From assembly GCF_000472285.1 (NCBI RefSeq), contig NZ_KI421412.1, positions 286,646 to 323,962 of the forward strand: DNA of 37,317 nt, written 5' to 3'. The notes under the pieces were generated by a model. That model made no database searches. It worked only from the letters and a program-made list of their open reading frames with translations, and was not told the DNA's origin. The position numbers and the translations under genes were made by a program. Numbering within the stretch: the first letter of the stretch is position 1; every line of letters begins with the position of its first letter. The DNA comes from Desulfuromonas sp. TF. GTDB taxonomy: Bacteria > Desulfobacterota > Desulfuromonadia > Desulfuromonadales > ATBO01. Shown piece after piece: positions 11,065-37,317 of this stretch.

Positions 11065-11541
11065 TCAGCGGACCGGATCATCGGACTTCGCCTTCCTGAC
11101 CTTCAGGACCCTTGCCACAGGATAGTTGTTGTAGACTTCCTCGAAATAGCGCCGGTCATACCTTCCGAGCAGGAACTGCTGGTTGAAATTGGTCCGGAAC
11201 AGGCGCTCATCCGCCACCAGGATCATGAACGTCCTGTTGTTCTTCATCAGGACCTGCAGGTAATAGCCTTCCCTTGTCCCGTACCTGCGTTCGCTGACCA
11301 CGTAACCGTTGTTTACGAACAGGGCGCCCCGCAGCGGTATGTCGACGGTGCCGTCGTTCATGAACCCCCGATTCAGATCAATTGTGCCGTCCATACATTT
11401 CATGACATTGTCGGCCATGGAGAAGCAGTTCAACTGGACATAGTCCATCGGGCTGCTCTGCTGCCTGTCGAAATCCCATGTTCCCAGGACCGAGATGGAC
11501 GGGAATTTCCAGATCATGTCCTCGAGATAGAGGATATGTAC
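11065..11541 (-). other. C-terminal GT-C/OST module, copy 1
   Basis: This segment encodes the last ~155 residues of OST copy 1. It starts at VHILYLEDM and contains a two-Cys segment (C575, C585), DGTIDLNRG, PLRGALFVNNGYVV, GYYLQVLMKN and NFNQQFLLGRYDRRYF. The same order of blocks is found at the end of the GT-C protein at 15255 and of the second OST at 35631. It is predicted to be a compact extracytoplasmic beta-rich domain; the function is unknown. Confidence 0.75.
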
Positions 11542-13149
11542 GTTTTCACCCCGGAAGTCTCCCGGATAGTCAAAAACCAGCTCCAGCATCTTATCGGCTG
11601 ACAGCTTATCCTGCCAGATCGACTGCGTCAGGGGAACGAAGCCGTTCTCCTCCAGGTAAGCAAGCAGCGAGACCATCTCCTTCTGGTCCGTCGAGGTCAT
11701 CGCCTTGGCGGCCAGGGTGGTGCGAATCCCCCCCTGCGTGCCGCCGTCATGGTAGGTGGCGAATTCCCCGATATTCATCAGGGGATAACCGAACTCCCAG
11801 AAGGGCGTGAACATCGCCGAATGGCGCGGCACGATTCTTTCGATATCCAGCAAAGCCCTGGTCGTCGACGCCTTGAGAATCGGCGCGACATTGAACGAGT
11901 ACCCGGTGTAGGCGCTGGTGGAGAAAAAAAGCGTGAACATCAGGGCGATGCCGACAAGCGGCACGGCAGGCTTGAGAAGGCGGATTCTCCCGCCGGCGTA
12001 TTTCACCAGCACTTCGATCAGCACCCCGGCTCCGACGCCGATCAGCGGCGCCATGTACATGGCAAACCGGGTCGGCCCCACCATCGACCAGGCTCCCAGG
12101 ACCACCAGCGGGGTGATCGGGATCATCTGTCGGAAGCGCCTCACGTAGAGGTAGACCAGCCCGGCAAAGCCCGCCGCGACCATCGGCAGAAAGCCGTGCA
12201 GCATCTCGAGATTGATGGTGATGCCGCGGCTCCTCGCTTCGGCGATGGTGTTCATGACATTCGGCCAGACGATCTGTCCCGTGGCCGGCGGGGAAATATA
12301 GGTCCACAGGAAGGTGCGCAGCGAATCGAATATCTGCAGCGCATACCCCGGCCCGGAAGCCAGGGGGAAGATCAGGAGAATCGGCACCAGATATTTCCAG
12401 TCGACGACCCTACCGACCACGAGATGGACCGCCATGAAGAACAGGAACAGGAGAATGAACATCGGCTGCTGGTACCACCAGTTGAACAGGTACATGGTCA
12501 GACCGGCGCCGAGGGCAAGGCCGAGGTTGGCGAACCGGCTTTTGTCTTTATTCATGGAGAGGATGAAGCACGCCGTGGCGATCGGGAAAAAGGTGTTGAG
12601 CAGATCGGTGTCGACCCGCCCCATCATGGTCCGGTCGTAATAGGCGTGGCTGAACGATCCGACCAGCCCTCCCAATACGGCCGAGGCGCCGAAGCCGAGC
12701 TTGTTGAAATAATAGAACAGGGGGAAAACGAAGAGCCCGGCCAGAATCGGGATGAGCATCAGTCCCGACCGGTAGTAGTTTCCGCTGGTCAGGTTCTTGG
12801 CGAGGCTGATGAATTCCGCCAGCAGGCCGGGCTTGTCTTTTATGGCAAACGGCGCCAGGTCGGGATAGCTCTTGGTGGGATCCGGCTGACCCTTGCCCAG
12901 AGTGCCTTTGTCCAGCTCTTTGGCCATCTCCAACCAATAGTAGGCGTCCAGGGTCGACATCGCGAAGACGTCGTCAACAACGTACTCCTGGCTGTTGGCA
13001 ATCCAGTATGCATAGCCCGAATGCCTCTGGTAAAAAGAAAGGCCGTATACCGCCAGGACGCAGATGAGAACCACAAGAAACGAGCGCCGGTTCTGAAAAT
13101 ATGTCTGAAGCTTGTTCATTTTCCAGGCCTGCAGGAGGTTGTCGACCAT
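11065..13149 (-). CDS. STT3/PglB/AglB-type oligosaccharyltransferase (copy 1)
   Basis: A 694-aa GT-C protein with about 13 membrane segments and a C-terminal soluble region. It transfers a lipid-linked oligosaccharide to protein at the outer face of the membrane. Visible catalytic features are D68 in STLDAYYW (first loop), R173 and D180-T-D182 in DRTMMGRVDTDLLN (the PglB R147/D154xD156 region), and T301-I-A-E304, the TIxE motif of external loop 5. The WWDYG sequon-binding motif appears as F450-W-E-F-G454, followed by the DGG at 468-470. Residues 537-683 form a module shared with 15255-17264. An ATG at 13119 is an alternative start. Its core is about 95% identical to the OST at 35631. Confidence 0.93.
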   Translation of the reverse strand: MVDNLLQAWKMNKLQTYFQNRRSFLVVLICVLAVYGLSFYQRHSGYAYWIANSQEYVVDDVFAMSTLDAYYWLEMAKELDKGTLGKGQPDPTKSYPDLAPFAIKDKPGLLAEFISLAKNLTSGNYYRSGLMLIPILAGLFVFPLFYYFNKLGFGASAVLGGLVGSFSHAYYDRTMMGRVDTDLLNTFFPIATACFILSMNKDKSRFANLGLALGAGLTMYLFNWWYQQPMFILLFLFFMAVHLVVGRVVDWKYLVPILLIFPLASGPGYALQIFDSLRTFLWTYISPPATGQIVWPNVMNTIAEARSRGITINLEMLHGFLPMVAAGFAGLVYLYVRRFRQMIPITPLVVLGAWSMVGPTRFAMYMAPLIGVGAGVLIEVLVKYAGGRIRLLKPAVPLVGIALMFTLFFSTSAYTGYSFNVAPILKASTTRALLDIERIVPRHSAMFTPFWEFGYPLMNIGEFATYHDGGTQGGIRTTLAAKAMTSTDQKEMVSLLAYLEENGFVPLTQSIWQDKLSADKMLELVFDYPGDFRGENVHILYLEDMIWKFPSISVLGTWDFDRQQSSPMDYVQLNCFSMADNVMKCMDGTIDLNRGFMNDGTVDIPLRGALFVNNGYVVSERRYGTREGYYLQVLMKNNRTFMILVADERLFRTNFNQQFLLGRYDRRYFEEVYNNYPVARVLKVRKAKSDDPVR
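11909..12745 (-). repeat. Long direct repeat, OST core copy 1
   Basis: These 837 bp match 36481-37317 at a constant offset of 24,572 bp with no indel that I can see and only scattered substitutions, mostly silent or conservative. The repeat runs to the right edge of the window, so its true length in the second copy is unknown. It covers the membrane core of the oligosaccharyltransferase, including DxD and TIxE. Similarity drops noticeably at the lower-coordinate end. Confidence 0.9.
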
Positions 13150-20468: not shown

Positions 20469-21655
20469 GGCGATACCAGGCGATGGTCTTCCAGGAGACA
20501 TCCCGCCCTTCGCGACCCTAAGCGCGGATCGAGGGGGATCACCTCGACGGTCTTCGCGCAGGCCAGCTCTGCCCGCACCGGAATGCTTCCCGCGGGAACG
20601 GGAAGCTTGATGCTGAAGGATTCTCCTCTGCCAAGGGTCTCCGTCGAGGCAGACCGGCCGGCGACCCGCAGCCGCACCTGCTGGCCATCGAGGTCGAGAT
20701 TCCTGCCGCGTATCTCGAGGAAGCCGGCCCGTCCGTCGGACGGCAGCCATAATTTGCCGCGTTTTCCGACCAGCCCGTCCTGCCAGACGCCCTGCACGTT
20801 CTGCAGCCATCTCCGCAGAGCGCGCTCGGTTCGCTCAATCAGCGGAGACGCCACCCTGCCGAGTCCGCCGGGGACGCTGGACGTCATGACCTCGGGCGTG
20901 ATCAGCTCCGCGTTGTTGCAGAGCTTTCGTACGACGGTGATGATGCTGTGGGAGATCGCCGCCGGCGACAGGCCCTTCACGCCATGCCGGTGGAGAATCC
21001 GGTAGATCTCCCGCATCCGAAGAAAACCGCCGGTCGCCGTCTTGGTGTCGCCGTAGATGCGGCCTGCCGCCTGGACATGGTCGATATAGCTGAAGGGAAA
21101 GCGTTTTCCCATGCGAATCCACAGCTCCCAGTCAAGCCCCCAGTTCAGCCCTTCGTCGAGCAGACCGCATGCGAACAGGGCTTCGCGGCGGAAAAAGACC
21201 GTCGGCTGCAGAATGTAATCGGAGTGGTTCGCCAGCCGCCAGAGGTCGAACGGCACCGTCTCGGGGAAGCGCCACATCACCTCCCCCGCTTCCGTCACCA
21301 GGTTGCCCTCTCCGTAGACCAGGGCGCTCTCGGGGTGTTTCGACAGGGCCTCGACAGCGCGGGCCACGGCGCCGGGGTAATAGAAGTCATCGGAATTCAG
21401 CCAGGCGACGATCTCGCCGCGGCTCCTGCGGAAGCCTTCGTTGATCGCGTCGCACTGCCCGCCGTCGGGAGCGCTGCGGAACCAGATCCTGTCGCCGTAG
21501 CTCTCCAGGATTTCCCTGGAGCCGTCGGTGCTCCCGCCGTCCAGGACCAGGATCTCCATCGGTTCGTAATTCTGAGCCAGGATGCTGTCTATGGCGACTC
21601 GCAGGAAACGGGCCTGCTGGTAGGACGGGACGATGATGCTGACCAGTGGGTTCAT
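20465..21655 (-). CDS. Family 2 glycosyltransferase with extra C-terminal domain
   Basis: A 396-aa protein. Residues 1-270 are a GT2 catalytic domain: SIIVPSYQQARFL, VLDGGSTDGS, AWLNSDDFYYPG and LNWGLDWELWIRMG. Residues ~300-396 form an additional domain with alternating hydrophobic residues (LEIRGRNLDLDGQQVRLRV and similar), probably a beta-sandwich, which may bind carbohydrate or position the acceptor; I cannot name it. GGGGAG lies nine bases upstream of the ATG. The gene is 16 bp downstream of cysNC and 4 bp overlaps the next GT2, so sulfate activation and glycan assembly are probably co-transcribed. Confidence 0.88.
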   Translation of the reverse strand: MNPLVSIIVPSYQQARFLRVAIDSILAQNYEPMEILVLDGGSTDGSREILESYGDRIWFRSAPDGGQCDAINEGFRRSRGEIVAWLNSDDFYYPGAVARAVEALSKHPESALVYGEGNLVTEAGEVMWRFPETVPFDLWRLANHSDYILQPTVFFRREALFACGLLDEGLNWGLDWELWIRMGKRFPFSYIDHVQAAGRIYGDTKTATGGFLRMREIYRILHRHGVKGLSPAAISHSIITVVRKLCNNAELITPEVMTSSVPGGLGRVASPLIERTERALRRWLQNVQGVWQDGLVGKRGKLWLPSDGRAGFLEIRGRNLDLDGQQVRLRVAGRSASTETLGRGESFSIKLPVPAGSIPVRAELACAKTVEVIPLDPRLGSRRAGCLLEDHRLVSP

Positions 21656-21671
21656 CAGAAACTTCTCCCCC

Positions 21672-23666
21672 CTAGAGCGACCCGTCCGGCGTCTCTCCCC
21701 TGTACTCCTCCCCCAGCAGCTCCTTCACGATCTGCTCCGCCAGATCCTCTGCGGGGAGGCGGTCCGCGGCGACGACGATCTCGGGGCTTTCGGGGATCTC
21801 GTAGGCCGAGTCGATGCCGGTGAAGTTCTTCAGTTCCCCCGCCCTCGCCTTCTTGTACAGCCCCTTGGGGTCGCGCCGCTCGCAGATCTCCAGGGGGGTG
21901 TCGACGTAGACCTCGTAGAACTCCCCTTCATCGAGGAGGTCCCGGGCCAGCAGACGCTCGCTCCGGAAGGGGGAGATGAAGGAGACCAGGACGATGAGGC
22001 CCGCATCGGCGAAGAGCTTCGCCACCTCGGCCACCCGGCGGATGTTCTCCACCCGGTCGACATCGGTGAAGCCGAGGTCGCGGTTGAGGCCGTGGCGGAC
22101 GTTGTCGCCGTCCAGGGTGTAGGTGTGCTTCCCCAGGGAGTGAAGCTTCTTCTCCACCAGGTTGGCGATGGTCGACTTGCCGGCACCGGAGAGGCCCGTG
22201 AACCAGAGCACCGCCGACTTCTGCCCCTTATGCGCCGCCCGGCTCCCCTTGTGGATGTCGAGGGCCTGCCAGTGGATGTTGGAGGCGCGGCGCAGGGCGA
22301 AGTCGATCATCCCGGCACCGACGGTGGCGTTGGTAAAGCGGTCGATGAGGATGAAGGCGCCGGTGGCCCGATTCTCCCGGTAGGGGTCGAAGGAGACGGC
22401 CTTTCCGAGGCTGAGATTGCAGATCCCCACCTCGTTGAGCGAGAGGGTCTTCCCCGGCTCGTTCTGCAGGGTGTTGACGTTGACCTTCTGCTTCAGCGCG
22501 GTGATCTGTGCCTGGACGACGGCGCTTCCGATCTTGAGGAGGTAGCCGCGGCCGGGGAGGAGCGGCTCCTCGTGCATCCAGACCACCTTCGCCTCGAACT
22601 GGTCGGCGTGGGTGGGGCGGTTTTCCGGGTCGGCGAGGACGTCGCCGCGGCTGACGTCGATCTCGTCGGCAAGAGTCAGGGTGACTGCCTGACCGGCGAC
22701 CGCCTCCTCCAGGTCCCCGTCCATGGTGACGATCCGGGCGACGGCACTCTTCTGCCCGGAGGATGGCACCACCACCGGGTCGCCGGGGCGAACGATCCCC
22801 GAGGCGATGGTCCCGGAGAACCCCCGGAAGTCGAGGTCGGGGCGGTTGACCCACTGCACCGGCATGCGGAAGGGCTTCTCCCGCATCTCCTCGGCGACCT
22901 CGACCGTCTCCAGGTACTCCATGAGGGTCGGCCCGTTGTACCAGGGCATGTTTTTTTCAGCTGTAAGCGGTAAGCTGTAAGCTGTAAGATTTTCTTTTGA
23001 CTTACCGCTTACAGCTTCCAGCTTACAGCTTGCATTGATGACGTTGTCGCCGTTGAGGGCGGAGATGGGGATGGCCGTGATCTCGTCGAAGCCGAGGCGG
23101 ACGGCGAAGATCTCGTACTCCCGTCGGATGGCCTCGAACCGCTCGGCGTCGTACCCGACCAGGTCCATCTTGTTCACCGCCACCACCACCTTGCGGATCC
23201 CCACCAGCGAAACGAGGTAGCTGTGCCGGCGGGTCTGGGTGAGGATCCCCTTGCGGGCGTCGACCAGGATCACGGCGACGCTCGCCGTGGAGGCGCCGGT
23301 GACCATGTTGCGAGTGTACTGCTCGTGACCGGGGGTGTCGGCGACGATGAACTTGCGCCGGTCGGTGGAGAAGAAGCGGTAGGCGACATCGATGGTGATT
23401 CCCTGCTCCCGCTCCGCCTGCAGCCCGTCGAGGAGCAGGGCGTAGTCGATCTTTCCCCCCTGGGTGCCGACCCTTTTGCTGTCCGCCTCCAGCGCCGCCA
23501 ACTGGTCCTCGAAGATCATCTTCGAATCCCACAGCAGCCGCCCGATCAGCGTGCTCTTGCCGTCGTCCACGCTGCCGCAGGTGATGAAGCGCAGCATCGA
23601 TTTTTCTTCCTGCTGCTTCAGATAATGGTGGATATCTTCGGCGATTAGATCGGATTGATGGGACAT
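21672..23666 (-). CDS. cysNC: Bifunctional sulfate adenylyltransferase large subunit / APS kinase (CysN-CysC), with in-frame palindromic insert
   Basis: A 664-aa fusion that activates sulfate. The CysN part is a GTPase ([24 protein letters not shown]) that drives ATP sulfurylation with CysD. The CysC part from about residue 480 phosphorylates APS to PAPS (P-loop GLSGAGKST 491-499, LDGDNVR about 518-524). Residues 213-236 are an insertion encoded by a 72-bp inverted repeat, lying between SALNGDNV and MPWYNGPT, where relatives have only a short linker. It keeps frame and adds no stop. GGAG lies nine bases before the ATG. PAPS is the sulfate donor for the sulfotransferase at 27535. The fused kinase suggests sulfation as well as, or instead of, assimilation. 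Confidence 0.95.
22959..23030. repeat. Palindromic heptad element inside cysNC
   Basis: Two 30-bp arms (22959-22988 and 23001-23030) are inverted relative to each other, matching at 27 of 30 positions, around a 12-bp A/T-rich spacer. Each arm is four heptads of the form AGCTGTA (or AGCGGTA/AGCTGGA) plus AG. The element is exactly 72 bp, 24 codons of cysNC. The RNA would form a long hairpin within the message. Confidence 0.92.
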
Positions 23667-23687
23667 TTCGAAAACTCCGTTTTCGTC

Positions 23688-23717
23688 AGCTTTAAGCTTT
23701 AAGCTTTAAGCTTTAAG
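23688..23717. repeat. Heptad array, AGCTTTA x4
   Basis: Four perfect AGCTTTA heptads plus AG, 30 bp, the same length and phase as one arm of the element inside cysNC but with a different unit sequence. It lies in the 104-bp gap between cysNC and the four-helix-bundle gene, just upstream of the cysNC start. Confidence 0.9.
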
Positions 23718-23749
23718 TTAAAAACAAAAAAGTTATAATTCTGGCTCCC

Positions 23750-23762
23750 AGCTTACAGCTTA
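23750..23762. repeat. Short inverted heptad array next to the four-helix gene
   Basis: AGCTTACAGCTTA is the reverse-complement form of the AGCTGTA heptad, about two units, 32 bp after the AGCTTTA array and in inverted orientation to it. It ends 8 bp from the stop codon of the four-helix-bundle gene. Confidence 0.75.
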
Positions 23763-23770
23763 GCATTCGT

Positions 23771-24112
23771 TTAACTTCTTATCTTTTCGATCAACCCGGT
23801 GATCATGGCGCTGATTTCCTTGGTTTCTTTGATCCAGGTCCGGCCGGTTTCCTCAACTATGTAGGCAATCCTCATACCGATGTAGATTTGTGTTCGCAAC
23901 TCGGCGCAGGAGCCGTTAGCGATGTGAAGGAATCGAATTTTGTCCTTGTCGGTTGGCTTGACCATTCCTTCGGCAACATTGCTGGGCACCGACAGAGATG
24001 ACCGTGTAATCTGGTCTTTGAAGCCAAAGTCCTTCAACTCTTTCAGTGTCGTATATACATCAGCGGAGAGTTTACAGCTCCGCTTCCAAACCTCCAGATT
24101 CTCAAAGTTCAT
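23771..24112 (-). CDS. Four-helix-bundle protein (S23 / 23S rRNA intervening-sequence protein family)
   Basis: A 113-aa protein with the family marks FENLEVWKRS at the N-terminus, LKELKDFGFKDQITRSSLSVPSNVAEG in the middle and RFLHIANGSCAELRTQ, all predicted helical. The family was first seen in insertions within 23S rRNA genes and is also scattered in genomes; it is related in fold to Avd of diversity-generating retroelements. Its molecular role is not settled. Here it lies between cysD and cysNC, which are normally adjacent, and is bracketed by heptad arrays on both sides. Its composition is visibly less G+C rich than its neighbours. This suggests a small inserted element, not a sulfate-activation gene. 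Confidence 0.9.
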   Translation of the reverse strand: MNFENLEVWKRSCKLSADVYTTLKELKDFGFKDQITRSSLSVPSNVAEGMVKPTDKDKIRFLHIANGSCAELRTQIYIGMRIAYIVEETGRTWIKETKEISAMITGLIEKIRS

Positions 24113-24128
24113 CTCCCCTCCTGTTTTC

Positions 24129-24152
24129 GCTTACAGCTTACAGCTTACAGCT
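24129..24152. repeat. Inverted heptad array between cysD and four-helix gene
   Basis: Just over three units of GCTTACA, the reverse complement of AGCTGTA. It ends at the first base of the cysD stop codon and starts 16 bp from the four-helix-bundle start codon. With the array at 23688-23717 it forms an inverted pair around the four-helix gene. Confidence 0.88.
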
Positions 24153-25057
24153 CAAAAGTACCCCTCCTGCTTCTTCTTCTCCATCGAACCCGCCTGGTCG
24201 TGATCGATCAGCCGCCCCTGTCGCTCGCTGGTCTTCGTCAACAGCATCTCCTGGATGATCTCCGGGAGGGTGGCGGCGGTCGATTCGACGGCGCCGGTAA
24301 GGGGGTAGCAGCCGAGGGTGCGGAAGCGTACCGACTTCATCTGCACCTCTTCACCAGGCAGGAGCTCGAGGCGGTCGTCATCGACCAGGAGGAGCATTCC
24401 GTCGCGCTCGACCACCGGGCGCACCGCGGAGTAGTAGAGGGGGACGATGGGGATCTCCTCCAGGGTGATGTACTGCCAGATGTCGAGTTCGGTCCAGTTG
24501 GAGAGAGGGAAAGCTCGGATCGACTCGCCGGGTTTGACCCGGGCGTTGTAGAGGGTCCACAGCTCGGGGCGCTGGCTCTTGGGGTCCCACCGGTGGGCGG
24601 CGGTGCGGAAGGAGAAGATCCGCTCCTTGGCCCGGGACTTCTCCTCATCGCGGCGGGCACCGCCGAATGCTGCGTCGAACCCGTACTTGTCGAGGGCCTG
24701 CTTGAGCCCCTCGGTCTTCATCACGTCTGTGTAGAGGGCGCTGCCGTGGGTAAAGGGGTTGATCCCCTGCCGCGCCCCCTCCTCGTTGGTATGGACCAGC
24801 AACTCGAAGCCGTACTCGCGGGCCATCCTGTCGCGAAACTCGATCATCTCGCGGAACTTCCAGGTGGTGTCCACGTGCAGCAGGGGGAAGGGGATCTTCC
24901 CGGGATGGAAGGCCTTCCGCGCCAGATGGAGCATGACAGAGGAGTCCTTGCCGATGGAGTAGAGCATCACCGGGTTCTCGAACTCGGCCGCGACCTCGCG
25001 GATGATGTGGATGCTCTCGGCTTCCAGTTGGCGGAGGTGGGTGAGAGGTATTTTCAT
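24152..25057 (-). CDS. cysD: Sulfate adenylyltransferase small subunit (CysD)
   Basis: A 301-aa ATP sulfurylase catalytic subunit of the PP-loop family. [14 protein letters not shown] (about 32-45) is the pyrophosphate-binding loop; [33 protein letters not shown]-like [11 protein letters not shown] and [14 protein letters not shown] are CysD blocks, and the protein ends in KKQEGYF, typical of the family. With CysN it forms APS from ATP and sulfate. The ATG follows AAAGGATAAGGA. Its stop codon begins at the last base of a heptad array. Normally cysN follows directly; here a four-helix-bundle gene and repeats separate them by 485 bp. Confidence 0.96.
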
Positions 25058-25074
25058 TCCTTATCCTTTAATGC

Positions 25075-25103
25075 AGCTTCAAGCCTCAAGCTTCAAGCCT
25101 TCA
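25075..25103. repeat. Heptad array, AGCTTCA type, upstream of cysD
   Basis: About four units: AGCTTCA, AGCCTCA, AGCTTCA and an 8-bp AGCCTTCA. It lies in the 115-bp gap between the GT4 gene and cysD, 17 bp upstream of the cysD start. It has the same heptad period and orientation as the array at 23688 but a third unit sequence. No inverted partner is seen nearby. Confidence 0.8.
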
Positions 25104-25173
25104 GGGGCCGGAATTCCTTCGGATCCGGCACGTGCTCGACGGTCTGTTCTTCTCCAGGCAGTAGCGACGACAT
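25093..25173 (-). CDS. Possible 26-codon small ORF between GT4 gene and cysD
   Basis: An ATG at 25173 shares one base with the stop of the GT4 gene (TGATG), an arrangement that allows re-initiation. The frame runs 26 codons, rich in Glu, Pro and Lys (LPGEEQTVEHVPDPKEF), and ends with a TGA inside the heptad array. It may be a real small peptide, the remains of a gene cut off by the repeat, or chance. I do not recognise it. Confidence 0.25.
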   Translation of the reverse strand: MSSLLPGEEQTVEHVPDPKEFRPLKA

Positions 25174-26417
25174 CAGCTTTTCCCCAACAACTCGCGGTAT
25201 ATGTTAACATATCGTTCCGAAACCTCGGCAAGGCTAAACTCGGCCGTTATCTTCCGCCGGGCCTCAACGGACAGCCTGGCACGTCGGTCGTCGTCTCCAA
25301 GCACCCACTCGATGCCCCGGGCAAGGTCCCCGGTATCGAAAGGTTGGGCCAGGTATCCGGAAACCTCATGGTCGACAAGGTCCGGGACGCCCCCTTGTCG
25401 GAAGGCGACACAGGGCGTGCCGCAGGCCATGGCCTCCATCACGGTATTTGGCAGATTTTCCTGCATTGACGGAGCGACGAACACGTCCGCCGCCGAATAA
25501 ATTCGAGCCAGCGAATGGTCGTCGTCAATCCGGCCCAGAAACCTGACCGGCATCCCCAGGTCCGGCATCCCGGCAGGAGCGGACGAGCCGAACACGACCG
25601 CGAGCGAACCGTTCGATTCCCTGGCGACCTCCTTCAATGCCCCGGTCAGCAGGTGAAACCCCTTGTTCGGGTCGGACATGCCCCGCACGGCGCCGAACAG
25701 GATGATTTTTTCACCCTGCGGCAATCCCAGCGAATTTCGTGATGAAACCTTGTCCAGGGGCTGGAAGGTTTCGGTTTCCAGGCCGTTGGGAATTACTTCC
25801 ACCCTAACATCGCGAAACAGGGAGCTTGAGCGGGCGCAATCGGCAAGCCAGCGGCTCGGCGTCACCACGGTCAGGTCGAGGTCGCGCCAGGCTTTTGCCT
25901 TCCGGTTCCAGGTCCAGCGGGACAGGTCCTTTTCGGAGGCCGAGCCGAGGACAGGGCAGACTCCGCAGTTCTCACGGTAACGAGTGCAATCGAAAGGAAC
26001 ATGGCAGCCGCCGGTAAACGCCCAGGAATCGTGCAGGGTCCAGATAATCGGCCGATTGAACGTTCGAAGGGTTTCCACCCGCAGGAACCCCGCGCAGATC
26101 CAGTGCAGATGAATGATGTCGGGATCTATGTCGGCAATCTCCCCCGGAACGCGTTCCGGCAGCAACGCGGGCGAAAAGTTGTTTTCCGGGTTTTTAGGGT
26201 AGAGACGCACCGGCAGCGTACCAACAAAGACTTTCAGCCGGCGGGCCAGCTTTCGCAATGGGTTGGGACTGCAGAGGATGTCATCCGAATGGCCGGACTT
26301 AAACTGCACAAGCATATCCGCATGGACGCCCCTGCTCCTTACCCCACTCAACAGGCGGCTTGCGGTCCGCGCCGCGCCGCCCGTGGCATCGAACGTGTTG
26401 AGCATCAGGACCTTCAT
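25173..26417 (-). CDS. GT4 family glycosyltransferase
   Basis: A 414-aa GT-B fold retaining glycosyltransferase. The N-terminal half has MLNTFDATGGAARTASRL, PDIIHLHWI and TLHDSWAFTGGCHVPFDC, common in a WcaC-like GT4 subgroup. The C-terminal half has VIPNGLETETF, ILFGAVRG and the donor-site motif FVAPSMQENLPNTVMEAMACGTP with the conserved E-x7-E. It acts in the cytoplasm on a lipid-linked acceptor; the sugar is unknown. Its start overlaps the deacetylase stop by 4 bp (ATGA). Confidence 0.93.
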   Translation of the reverse strand: MKVLMLNTFDATGGAARTASRLLSGVRSRGVHADMLVQFKSGHSDDILCSPNPLRKLARRLKVFVGTLPVRLYPKNPENNFSPALLPERVPGEIADIDPDIIHLHWICAGFLRVETLRTFNRPIIWTLHDSWAFTGGCHVPFDCTRYRENCGVCPVLGSASEKDLSRWTWNRKAKAWRDLDLTVVTPSRWLADCARSSSLFRDVRVEVIPNGLETETFQPLDKVSSRNSLGLPQGEKIILFGAVRGMSDPNKGFHLLTGALKEVARESNGSLAVVFGSSAPAGMPDLGMPVRFLGRIDDDHSLARIYSAADVFVAPSMQENLPNTVMEAMACGTPCVAFRQGGVPDLVDHEVSGYLAQPFDTGDLARGIEWVLGDDDRRARLSVEARRKITAEFSLAEVSERYVNIYRELLGKS

Positions 26418-35634: not shown

Positions 35635-36113
35635 CGAGCGGGCTGTTGCGCAAGGGGCAGCGTGCTTTTGACCTTCAGGACCCTTCCCACGGGAAAGTTG
35701 TTGTAGACCTCTTCAAAATAGCGCCGGTCGTAATTACCGAGCAGATACTGCTGGTTGAAGTTGCTCCAGAACAGAGGGGGCTCGACCATCTGGACATCGA
35801 AGATCCTGCTGTTCTTCATCAGCACCTGCAGATAGTAGCCCTGGCTGGAAGCATAGTCGATCCGGTTGACGACCGTGCCATTATTGATGAAGAGTGCTGC
35901 TACGAGCGGAGCATAGTTAGCTCCATTGCTGACGGTCCCCCTGCCCAGGTCGATCCGGCCTTCGCGGCAGTTCATGACGCCATTGTCCTCGGGCGTGCAG
36001 GTCAGATACAGGTAATCCATGGGATTGTTGGTCTTCCGGTCGAAGTCCCAGGTGCCGGAATAGGCCATTGAACGGAATTTTTCCAGCATTTCCTCGAGAT
36101 AGAGAACATAAAC
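35631..36113 (-). other. C-terminal GT-C/OST module, copy 3
   Basis: Last ~160 residues of the second OST: VYVLYLEEM, IDLGRG, VAALFINNG, GYYLQVLMKN, NFNQQYLLGNYDRRYF. It aligns with the modules at 11065 and 15255. Its first half is the most divergent of the three, despite the near-identical core of this OST and copy 1. Confidence 0.75.
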
Positions 36114-37317
36114 ATGGTCTCCCCGGAAGTCCCCTGTATGGTGGAAAACCCGCTCCAGCATGTCGTCGGCCGACAGGTTTTCCTTCCGGATCGACTGTGC
36201 CAGGCCGACGAAGCCGTTCTCTTCCAGGTAGGCCAGCAGCGACACCATCTCCCCCTGGTCCGTCGAGGTCATCGCCCTGGCCGCCAGGGTGGTGCGGATC
36301 CCCCCCTGAGTGCCGCCGTCATGATACGTGGCGAACTCCCCAATATTCATCAGGGGATAACCGTACTCCCAGAAGGGCGTGAACATCGCCGAGTGAAGCG
36401 GCACGATGCTTTTGATATCCAGCATGGCCCTGACGGTTTTGGGTTTGAGGACCGGGAGGGGCGTTTTGGAGTAGCCGGTATAGGCGCTGGTGGAGAAAAA
36501 GAGCGCGAACATCAGGGCGATGCCGACAAGCGGCACGGCAGGCTTGAGAAGGCGGATCCTCGCTCCGGCGTATTTCACCAGCACTTCGATCAGCACCCCG
36601 GCGCCGACCCCGATCAGCGGCGCCATGTACATGGCGAACCGGGTCGGCCCCACCATCGACCAGACGCCCAAGACCAGCAGTGGGGTAATGGGGATCATCT
36701 GCTTGAAACGCCTGGCGTAGAGGTAGATCAGCCCGGCAAAGCCCGCCGCGACCATCGGCAGAAAGCCGTGCAGCATCTCGAGATTGGCCGCGATGCCGCG
36801 GCTCCGGGCCTCGGCGATGGTGTCCATGACGTTCGGCCAGACGATCTGCCCCGTGGCGGGCGGGGAAATATAGGTCCACAGGAAGGTGCGCAGGGAATCG
36901 AAAATCTGAAGCGCGTAACCGGGACCGGAAGCCAGGGGGAAGATCAGGAGAATCGGCACAAGGTATTTCCAGTCGACGACCCGACCGACCACGAGATGGA
37001 TCGCCATGAAGAACAGGAACAAAAGAATGAACATCGGCTGCTGGTACCACCAGTTGAACAGGTACATGGTCAGTCCGGCGCCGAGGGCAAGGCCGAGGTT
37101 GGCGAACCGGCTTTTGTCTTTATGCATGGAGAGGATGAAGCTCGCCGTGGCGATCGGGAAAAAGGTGTTGAGAAGATCGGTGTCGACCCGCCCCATCATG
37201 GTCCGGTCGTAATAGGCGTGGCTGAACGACCCGACCAGTCCTCCCAATACGGCCGAGGCGCCGAAGCCGAGCTTGTTGAAATAATAGAACAGGGGGAAAA
37301 CGAAGAGCCCGGCCAGA
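35631..37317 (-). CDS. STT3/PglB/AglB-type oligosaccharyltransferase (copy 2), N-terminus beyond window
   Basis: The open frame runs through the right edge; about 130 N-terminal residues by comparison with copy 1 are missing. Visible motifs are YYDRTMMGRVDTDLLNTFF (catalytic Arg and DxD), DTIAEARSRG (TIxE motif of loop 5) and FWEYGYPLMN, the WWDYG equivalent, followed by the DGG. The membrane core differs from copy 1 by roughly 13 in 258 residues by hand count, whereas the C-terminal module is much less alike. Its gene overlaps the second flippase by 4 bp. Transfer of a lipid-linked oligosaccharide to Asn is the family reaction; the acceptor sequon is not shown. Confidence 0.93.
   Translation of the reverse strand, partial: LAGLFVFPLFYYFNKLGFGASAVLGGLVGSFSHAYYDRTMMGRVDTDLLNTFFPIATASFILSMHKDKSRFANLGLALGAGLTMYLFNWWYQQPMFILLFLFFMAIHLVVGRVVDWKYLVPILLIFPLASGPGYALQIFDSLRTFLWTYISPPATGQIVWPNVMDTIAEARSRGIAANLEMLHGFLPMVAAGFAGLIYLYARRFKQMIPITPLLVLGVWSMVGPTRFAMYMAPLIGVGAGVLIEVLVKYAGARIRLLKPAVPLVGIALMFALFFSTSAYTGYSKTPLPVLKPKTVRAMLDIKSIVPLHSAMFTPFWEYGYPLMNIGEFATYHDGGTQGGIRTTLAARAMTSTDQGEMVSLLAYLEENGFVGLAQSIRKENLSADDMLERVFHHTGDFRGDHVYVLYLEEMLEKFRSMAYSGTWDFDRKTNNPMDYLYLTCTPEDNGVMNCREGRIDLGRGTVSNGANYAPLVAALFINNGTVVNRIDYASSQGYYLQVLMKNSRIFDVQMVEPPLFWSNFNQQYLLGNYDRRYFEEVYNNFPVGRVLKVKSTLPLAQQPAR
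36481..37317 (-). repeat. Long direct repeat, OST core copy 2
   Basis: Matches 11909-12745 base for base with few substitutions and a constant offset of 24,572 bp. It continues beyond the window. Both copies are in the same orientation. Confidence 0.9.

Follow-up and report, generated by a model that had tools for sequence, protein, structure and literature searches.

A palindromic heptad element in frame within cysNC of Desulfuromonas sp. TF, and arrays of seven-letter words beside S23p genes

The cysNC gene of Desulfuromonas sp. TF contains, in frame, a 72-bp palindrome built of seven-letter words, and arrays of seven-letter words often border S23p genes in many bacteria, among them the S23p gene that lies 740 bp from this palindrome in the same cys operon. 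We consider it probable, at roughly 0.6 for the full explanation including the way in which the element would spread, that the cysN palindrome is a copy, lacking S23p, of a dispersed class of inverted-heptad elements that borders S23p genes. The features of the cys region are given in Table 1 in the coordinates of the window, by which we mean the whole stretch of 37,317 nucleotides that was analyzed; other genomes, contigs, and loci are cited by handle (G, C, and L numbers) only where they need to be told apart.

Table 1. Features of the cys region and its heptad arrays (window coordinates)
Feature	Position	Strand	Remarks
cysNC, encoding a fusion of the GTPase CysN with the APS kinase CysC, 664 aa	21672..23666	-	Contains the GTPase and APS-kinase motifs for which it was checked
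72-bp palindromic heptad element	22959..23030	.	In frame in cysNC, codons 213-236
Left arm of palindrome, AGCTGTA AGCGGTA AGCTGTA AGCTGTA AG	22959..22988	+	
12-nt loop of palindrome	22989..23000	.	
Right arm of palindrome	23001..23030	-	cysN-sense forward arm on minus strand; variant heptad AGCTGGA replaces in-frame stop
(AGCTTTA)4 heptad array in the gap from S23p gene to cysNC	23688..23715	.	Reverse arm in cys sense
Short forward heptad arm directly past S23p stop codon	23743..23762	-	
Gene for S23p (23S_rRNA_IVP) four-helix-bundle protein, 113 aa	23771..24112	-	Shine-Dalgarno-like AGGAGGGG before it
Forward heptad arm (AGCTGTA)3 in the gap from cysD stop codon to S23p start	24127..24152	-	
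cysD, sulfate adenylyltransferase subunit 2	24152..25057	-	Named by PAPS_reduct domain and position before cysNC
Degenerate heptad array (AGCTTCAAGCCTCAAGC...) upstream of cysD	25075..25100	+	

The palindrome and the CysN linker

Read on the minus strand from 23030 to 22959, the element supplies codons 213-236 of the 664-aa CysNC without a stop. Its two 30-nt arms, made of TGTAAGC-type heptads, are complementary at 27 of 30 positions across the loop; the first-pass annotation had described the coordinates, arms, 12-nt loop, 72-bp total, frame, residues, and absence of stops exactly. As RNA, the palindrome is predicted to fold into one hairpin of -42.1 kcal/mol (z -8.1), a stability equaled by 0 of 200 dinucleotide shuffles, and the DNA fold reaches -27.2 (z -8.2). 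A forward arm of pure consensus, read in the cysN sense, produces a stop in every frame; in cysN, the sole would-be in-frame TAA codon is GAA, by way of the variant heptad AGCTGGA. Since this variant was also found in an intergenic copy (L053), it may pre-date the cysN insertion, and selection for it after insertion is possible. Of the two marks of a MITE, terminal inverted repeats and a target-site duplication, the element has inverted arms, while inspection by eye of the filled site alone revealed no duplication. An Rfam scan of positions 21600-25300 gave no match above gathering score; five matches at E <= 1, to four miRNA families and an intron family, all fell below their gathering scores and were taken as chance hairpin matches.

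Pfam places the GTPase domain N-terminal of the insert, with domain 2, the C-terminal domain, and the APS kinase after it. In a search of 136 genomes of the order, 59 contained CysNC at E <= 1e-120, and the linker, measured from GDN[V/I] to PW (or equivalent), was compared in 29 genomes other than that of the window. If every relative had a linker of the same length, the insertion reading of the first-pass annotation would be wrong. Instead, the window's CysN has a linker of 31 residues, i.e., 7 plus 24, and the linker is 7 residues long in 26 of the 29 relatives (the exceptions being 13 in G053, 8 in G038, and 14 in G030) and in the second CysNC of the same genome. When the window's CysN is aligned with the solved P. 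syringae CysN (1zun_B), the alignment breaks off at residue 213 and restarts at 239. We read the 24 extra codons, which are missing from the 26 relatives, the paralogue, and the P. syringae chain, as an insertion, and on this comparison of sequences we regard the in-frame insertion as real. The first-pass claim that a dispersed repeat entered a tolerant interdomain linker as a multiple of three is likewise supported.

Heptads were also found in one of the longer linkers. That of G053 holds TTCCAGC TTAGAGC TTACAGC TT in frame, for a net gain of 6 residues, and three tandem TTNNAGC units occur in the CysNC loci (125,157 bases) of 2 of the 29 relatives, namely, G053, at the CysN linker only, and G023, on both sides of its S23p gene. 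The longer linkers of G038 and G030 contain no clear heptads, and we do not claim them as heptad insertions. In a CysNC tree from which the linker was left out, G053 pairs with G084 (99/94), whose linker has 7 residues, inside a clade with G038 and G030 (99/95), while the window's sequence sits apart from that clade, beside G021, with weak support (84/79). We therefore set aside an insert shared by ancestry with G053; given the placement in the tree and the normal linker of G084, the two linker insertions are separate events, unless losses are assumed.

The second cysD-cysNC pair of the genome lies at L041:1682-4571 (G000:C1:128181-131070). In a motif check, the cysNC of this pair proved to be without the P-loop of the APS kinase and two further kinase motifs; the gap between the two genes carries a heptad palindrome, with no S23p match there.

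Dispersed heptad arrays in the genome

The heptads are not a product of chance, because the 4.40-Mb genome contains 145 matches to the pattern AGCTNNAAGCTNNAAGC and 1 to its reversed control. Across the order, the pattern matches in 39 of 136 genomes. A search of the genome for other copies, which the first-pass annotation had proposed, places the cysN element in a dispersed heptad family. Its closest other copy, on contig C9, is intergenic, lying between two ORFs, and is 84% identical over its length (63 of 75 positions, covering both arms and part of the loop); another near-full-length copy, at C1:54934, is 80% identical.

We surveyed tandem arrays in 214,649 bases, made up of the window and 20 stretches that were chosen for AGCTNNA arrays or S23p genes and so are not a random sample. 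Period 7 yielded 70 arrays, including a few that are runs of N, compared with 5 to 11 for periods 4, 5, 6, 8, 9, 10, 11, and 13. The period-7 arrays carry many different words at many places in the sampled stretches, and their lengths vary widely, from 2 to over 20 units. In the array listing of the sampled stretches of this genome, oppositely directed AGCTNNA arrays that lie less than 150 bp apart without overlap have the forward arm first in 7 of 7 cases. Of 59 period-7 arrays that were 24 bases or longer, four were internal to an ORF (one of at least 100 aa with third-position GC above 0.68, the array lying 150 bases or more into it): the two cysN arms, an in-frame CAAAACT array in gmd, encoding GDP-mannose dehydratase (L052:6438-6471), and an in-frame AATCACG-type array in a gene for an MBL-fold ribonuclease (L052:8942-8970). 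At the array, the gmd product has about 10 extra residues relative to the solved structure 1db3, and the ribonuclease about 11 relative to 2dkf. Further arrays overlap gene ends.

These are dispersed tandem 7-mers, mainly intergenic, as in the STRR-like class of repeats; the cyanobacterial STRRs are heptamer repeats. The cysN word, TGTAAGC with its variants, is not the TAACTGA, GGGAATC, or GGGACCG of described families. TAACTGA is found, as CAGTTAT, at other sites of this genome (L043:1660-1687 and L051:12819-12886), as are CCAGCCC (L049:9928-9965), GGACAGA (L053:4602-4679), and GTCCTCT (L045:15019-15079), and the presence of these four words as arrays in one genome indicates that several heptad families coexist in it. 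Within the window, positions 11097-12196 and 35669-36768, about 24.6 kb apart, are related stretches that are up to 92% identical in parts.

The heptamer TAACTGA has been reported from Beggiatoaceae, Cyanobacteria, and Bacteroidetes; its forward orientation is noted to produce stops in all frames, and 11 ORFs are listed with repeats in the reverse orientation (PMC4679880). The paper on GGGAATC of Xanthomonas, which also covers heptamer repeats of Nostoc, counts 70 convergent inverted pairs in one genome and 75 in another (PMC4692102). Geobacter metallireducens has GGGACCG and class-3 sites within and between genes (PMC2700814). The cysN family resembles these in consisting of dispersed tandem 7-mers that are mostly intergenic and in some cases intragenic, and it differs from them in its words. 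In the portions of these publications drawn on here, neither a link to S23p nor a forward-plus-reverse palindrome translated in the domain linker of a conserved enzyme is described.

Rickettsia palindromic elements are palindromic repeats that have been found in frame within ORFs (PMC3767692), and the cysN element, a palindrome in frame inside a gene, is like them in this respect. However, those elements measure 100 to 150 bp and belong to Rickettsia and Wolbachia (PMC3767692), whereas the cysN element measures 72 bp, and the parts of that paper used here describe for them neither tandem heptads with inverted arms nor a tie to S23p. Of the interpretation offered in the first-pass annotation, the dispersed in-frame repeat in a tolerant linker stands, and the Rickettsia parallel stays an analogy. 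PARCEL repeats are palindromic coding repeats of another kind (PMC2996958).

S23p genes and their flanking arrays

The S23p gene between cysD and cysNC, on which the first-pass annotation is silent, belongs to PF05635 (23S_rRNA_IVP) and is related to the solved structure 2gsc. TGTAAGC heptads stand before it, and after it a short TGTAAGC arm is followed by an inverted TTTAAGC array. The same plan (cysD, arm, S23p, inverted arm, cysNC) is repeated in G053 and G023, and complementary arms were seen by eye beside the S23p genes of the window and G023. S23p adjoins cysD and/or cysNC matches in 20 locus records, some of which duplicate a place (L074/L149 and L093/L126); the records include five Pseudomonas loci, Halopseudomonas, Modicisalibacter, and Amphritea, which suggests that the association of S23p with cysD and cysN(C) is old. 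In these genera (L158, L162, L167, L169, L171, L172, L179, and L187), S23p lies between cysD and cysN(C), except in L162. AGCTTNN-type arrays follow S23p in P. neustonica (L179) and Halopseudomonas (L171). Four Pseudomonas loci (L158, L167, L169, and L187) have S23p by cysD and cysN(C) with no arrays detected within 250 bp, so in some lineages S23p may be kept for a cell function of its own. Broken S23p genes were observed at L052:2679-2849, where a partial match with a stop has period-7 arrays on both sides, and at L052:6816-7113, where the match is in two pieces.

Across phyla, we took the best 80 S23p loci in named genomes among the matches listed, a sample biased toward relatives of the window's S23p, and used 77, since 3 had short flanks. 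A period-7 array lies within 150 bp upstream in 25 of the 77, within 180 bp downstream in 38, on both sides in 19, and on either side in 44; 33 have no array within these distances, and 58 are bare on at least one side. Control windows 700 to 2,700 bp away contained a period-7 array in 16 of 699 cases, and every other period from 4 to 12 was found beside S23p in 0 to 4 of 77 loci per side. With intergenic gaps of 40 to 1,000 bp delimited by a simple ORF rule, arrays occupy 50 of 128 gaps adjacent to S23p versus 22 of 141 other gaps of the same loci (p 1.6e-5). Within the order, an array lies within 200 bp of 25 of 34 S23p loci, 10 of them with arrays on both sides, versus 0 of 23 Y1-transposase loci (p 6.5e-9), a control that is not genome matched, only 6 of its 30 genomes having given S23p loci. 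The S23p set of the order comprised 36 loci (the 29 best-scoring and 7 of this genome), 2 of which were dropped for short flanks, and 7 of 30 transposase loci were dropped as incomplete. Period-7 arrays thus do not flank these 23 Y1_Tnp loci within 200 bp, in the way that REP/BIME repeats flank the genes for the Y1 transposases (RAYT) that mobilize them.

In 22 loci, S23p is flanked by arrays up to 250 bp away on either side. The arms are inverted copies at 12 or more of 14 bases in 14 of these loci and fall below this value in 8, while 3 of the 22 have direct repeats; inverted matches between loci amount to 4.1%. Most two-sided loci therefore have one word in both arms, and the words differ among loci. 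Among the 113 loci used for a comparison of words with proteins, which left out L032, L035, and L037-L039 of this genome, 69 have arrays, and their word similarity climbs with S23p identity (r 0.22, reached in 0 of 2,000 permutations, same-genus pairs included). Pairs whose words match at 12 or more of 14 bases make up 4 to 5% below 50% S23p identity, 10% at 50 to 60%, and 35% at 60 to 70%. Read in the S23p sense, the words show a weak consensus, NNN[CAG]AG[TGC], of 3.84 bits compared with a mean of 3.15 and a maximum of 3.24 for random strands, although the observed value is the best of 30 starts and the controls the best of 8, which somewhat favors the former. In the same sense, G exceeds C in 50 of the 69 loci, is below C in 7, and equals it in 12.

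Origin and significance of the element

A close precedent for S23p beside heptamers is the intervening sequence (IVS) of the Coxiella 23S rRNA, in which an S23p ORF lies in the loop of a long inverted repeat, with tandem GACAGAT heptamers just before the ORF (PMC4990558). The Coxiella IVS is in 23S rRNA and is excised by RNase III, whereas the window's S23p lies between protein genes. The cysN element shares with such IVSs a long stem formed by complementary ends; its 12-nt loop contains no S23p ORF, the neighboring element holds an S23p gene, and both sit outside 23S rRNA, inside cysNC and between cysD and cysNC, respectively. Among the literature matches listed, mostly open papers, no general link between heptamer repeats and S23p was found beyond the Coxiella remark in PMC4990558. 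Avd of diversity-generating retroelements has been reported to share sequence and structural homology with PF05635 (PMC10053308).

In the explanation that we favor, an element would begin with heptads in forward array (here TGTAAGC), continue with a loop, and end with the inverted array, and would spread as a hairpin of RNA or single-stranded DNA. Copying as a unit is supported by the C9 copy. S23p, judging from the architecture and from its reported homology to Avd, would recognize the hairpin that its own word forms, and nonautonomous copies would be those that lack the gene, the cysN insert among them. The cysN hairpin would be translated through as a 24-residue surface loop that the enzyme presumably tolerates, the insert having survived because its length is a multiple of three, the linker is tolerant, and the one in-frame stop is absent. 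Against simple spread driven by S23p speaks the finding that, in the genomes of the order, the abundance of AGCTNNA does not clearly follow the presence of S23p: of 16 genomes with at least 5 AGCTNNA matches, S23p exceeds the cut-off in 9 but not in the other 7, compared with 59 of 136 overall, and G005 has 74 matches with no S23p over the cut-off.

That same independence would be expected if no mobile element were involved and arrays simply grew by polymerase slippage and became inverted by snap-back copying, with S23p merely residing in array-rich gaps. The wide range of array lengths also fits such growth, and an account of this kind is cited for heptamers in PMC4692102. However, the cysN copy matches an intergenic copy across both arms and part of the loop, and local growth alone is therefore not enough; S23p flanks are richer in arrays than either other gaps of the same loci or transposase flanks, and 14 of the 22 two-sided loci have, in both arms, one word that is rarely common to other loci. 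We thus think it rather improbable that slippage accounts for these observations. The very stable predicted hairpin of nearly 30 bp, the heptad elements in several cys-operon gaps here and in G053, and the cutting of 23S rRNA IVS hairpins by RNase III (PMC4990558) might instead point to a site at which the cys transcript is regulated or processed, e.g., by RNase III, and which would owe its persistence to selection and not to selfish spread. Yet a cut within cysN would break an intact open frame, most relatives do without the extra codons, and the sampled stretches contain arrays of many further words at many sites besides this one, so we judge such a site unlikely.

The insert would be meaningless if cysNC were decaying or the palindrome were an assembly artifact, and the second cysD-cysNC pair could indeed make the window's copy redundant. 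However, the window's cysNC retains its GTPase and APS-kinase motifs in an open frame with a third-position GC of 0.90, it is the paralogue and not this copy that is missing the kinase P-loop, the palindrome lies in the interior of a 528-kb contig (in an assembly of 17 contigs listed as 100% complete), and G053 has a heptad insertion at the same linker. We regard decay or artifact as very improbable. An S23p-less copy of a dispersed inverted-heptad element remains our preferred reading of the cysN palindrome. We offer only tentatively, as a possibility short of even odds, its extension to a single mobile-element class in many phyla, in which inverted heptad arrays and S23p would belong together, S23p would recognize the hairpin of its own word and help copy it, the heptamers of cyanobacteria, Beggiatoaceae, Xanthomonas, and Geobacter would be nonautonomous copies, and in cysN one such copy would have turned into protein.

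A repeat within a gene has precedents, and it is the S23p gene and the inverted heptad surroundings that make the cysN case more interesting. Neither for heptamer repeats nor for S23p/IVS elements do the published descriptions establish a function or a mode of spread (PMC4679880, PMC4990558). The period-7 architecture beside S23p in distant phyla, mostly inverted where it is two-sided, may tie these two puzzles together, and it offers a concrete protein and a concrete hairpin to examine. Altogether, the insertions in cysN, gmd, the MBL-fold ribonuclease gene, and the G053 linker suggest that such repeats feed new peptide loops into conserved enzymes.
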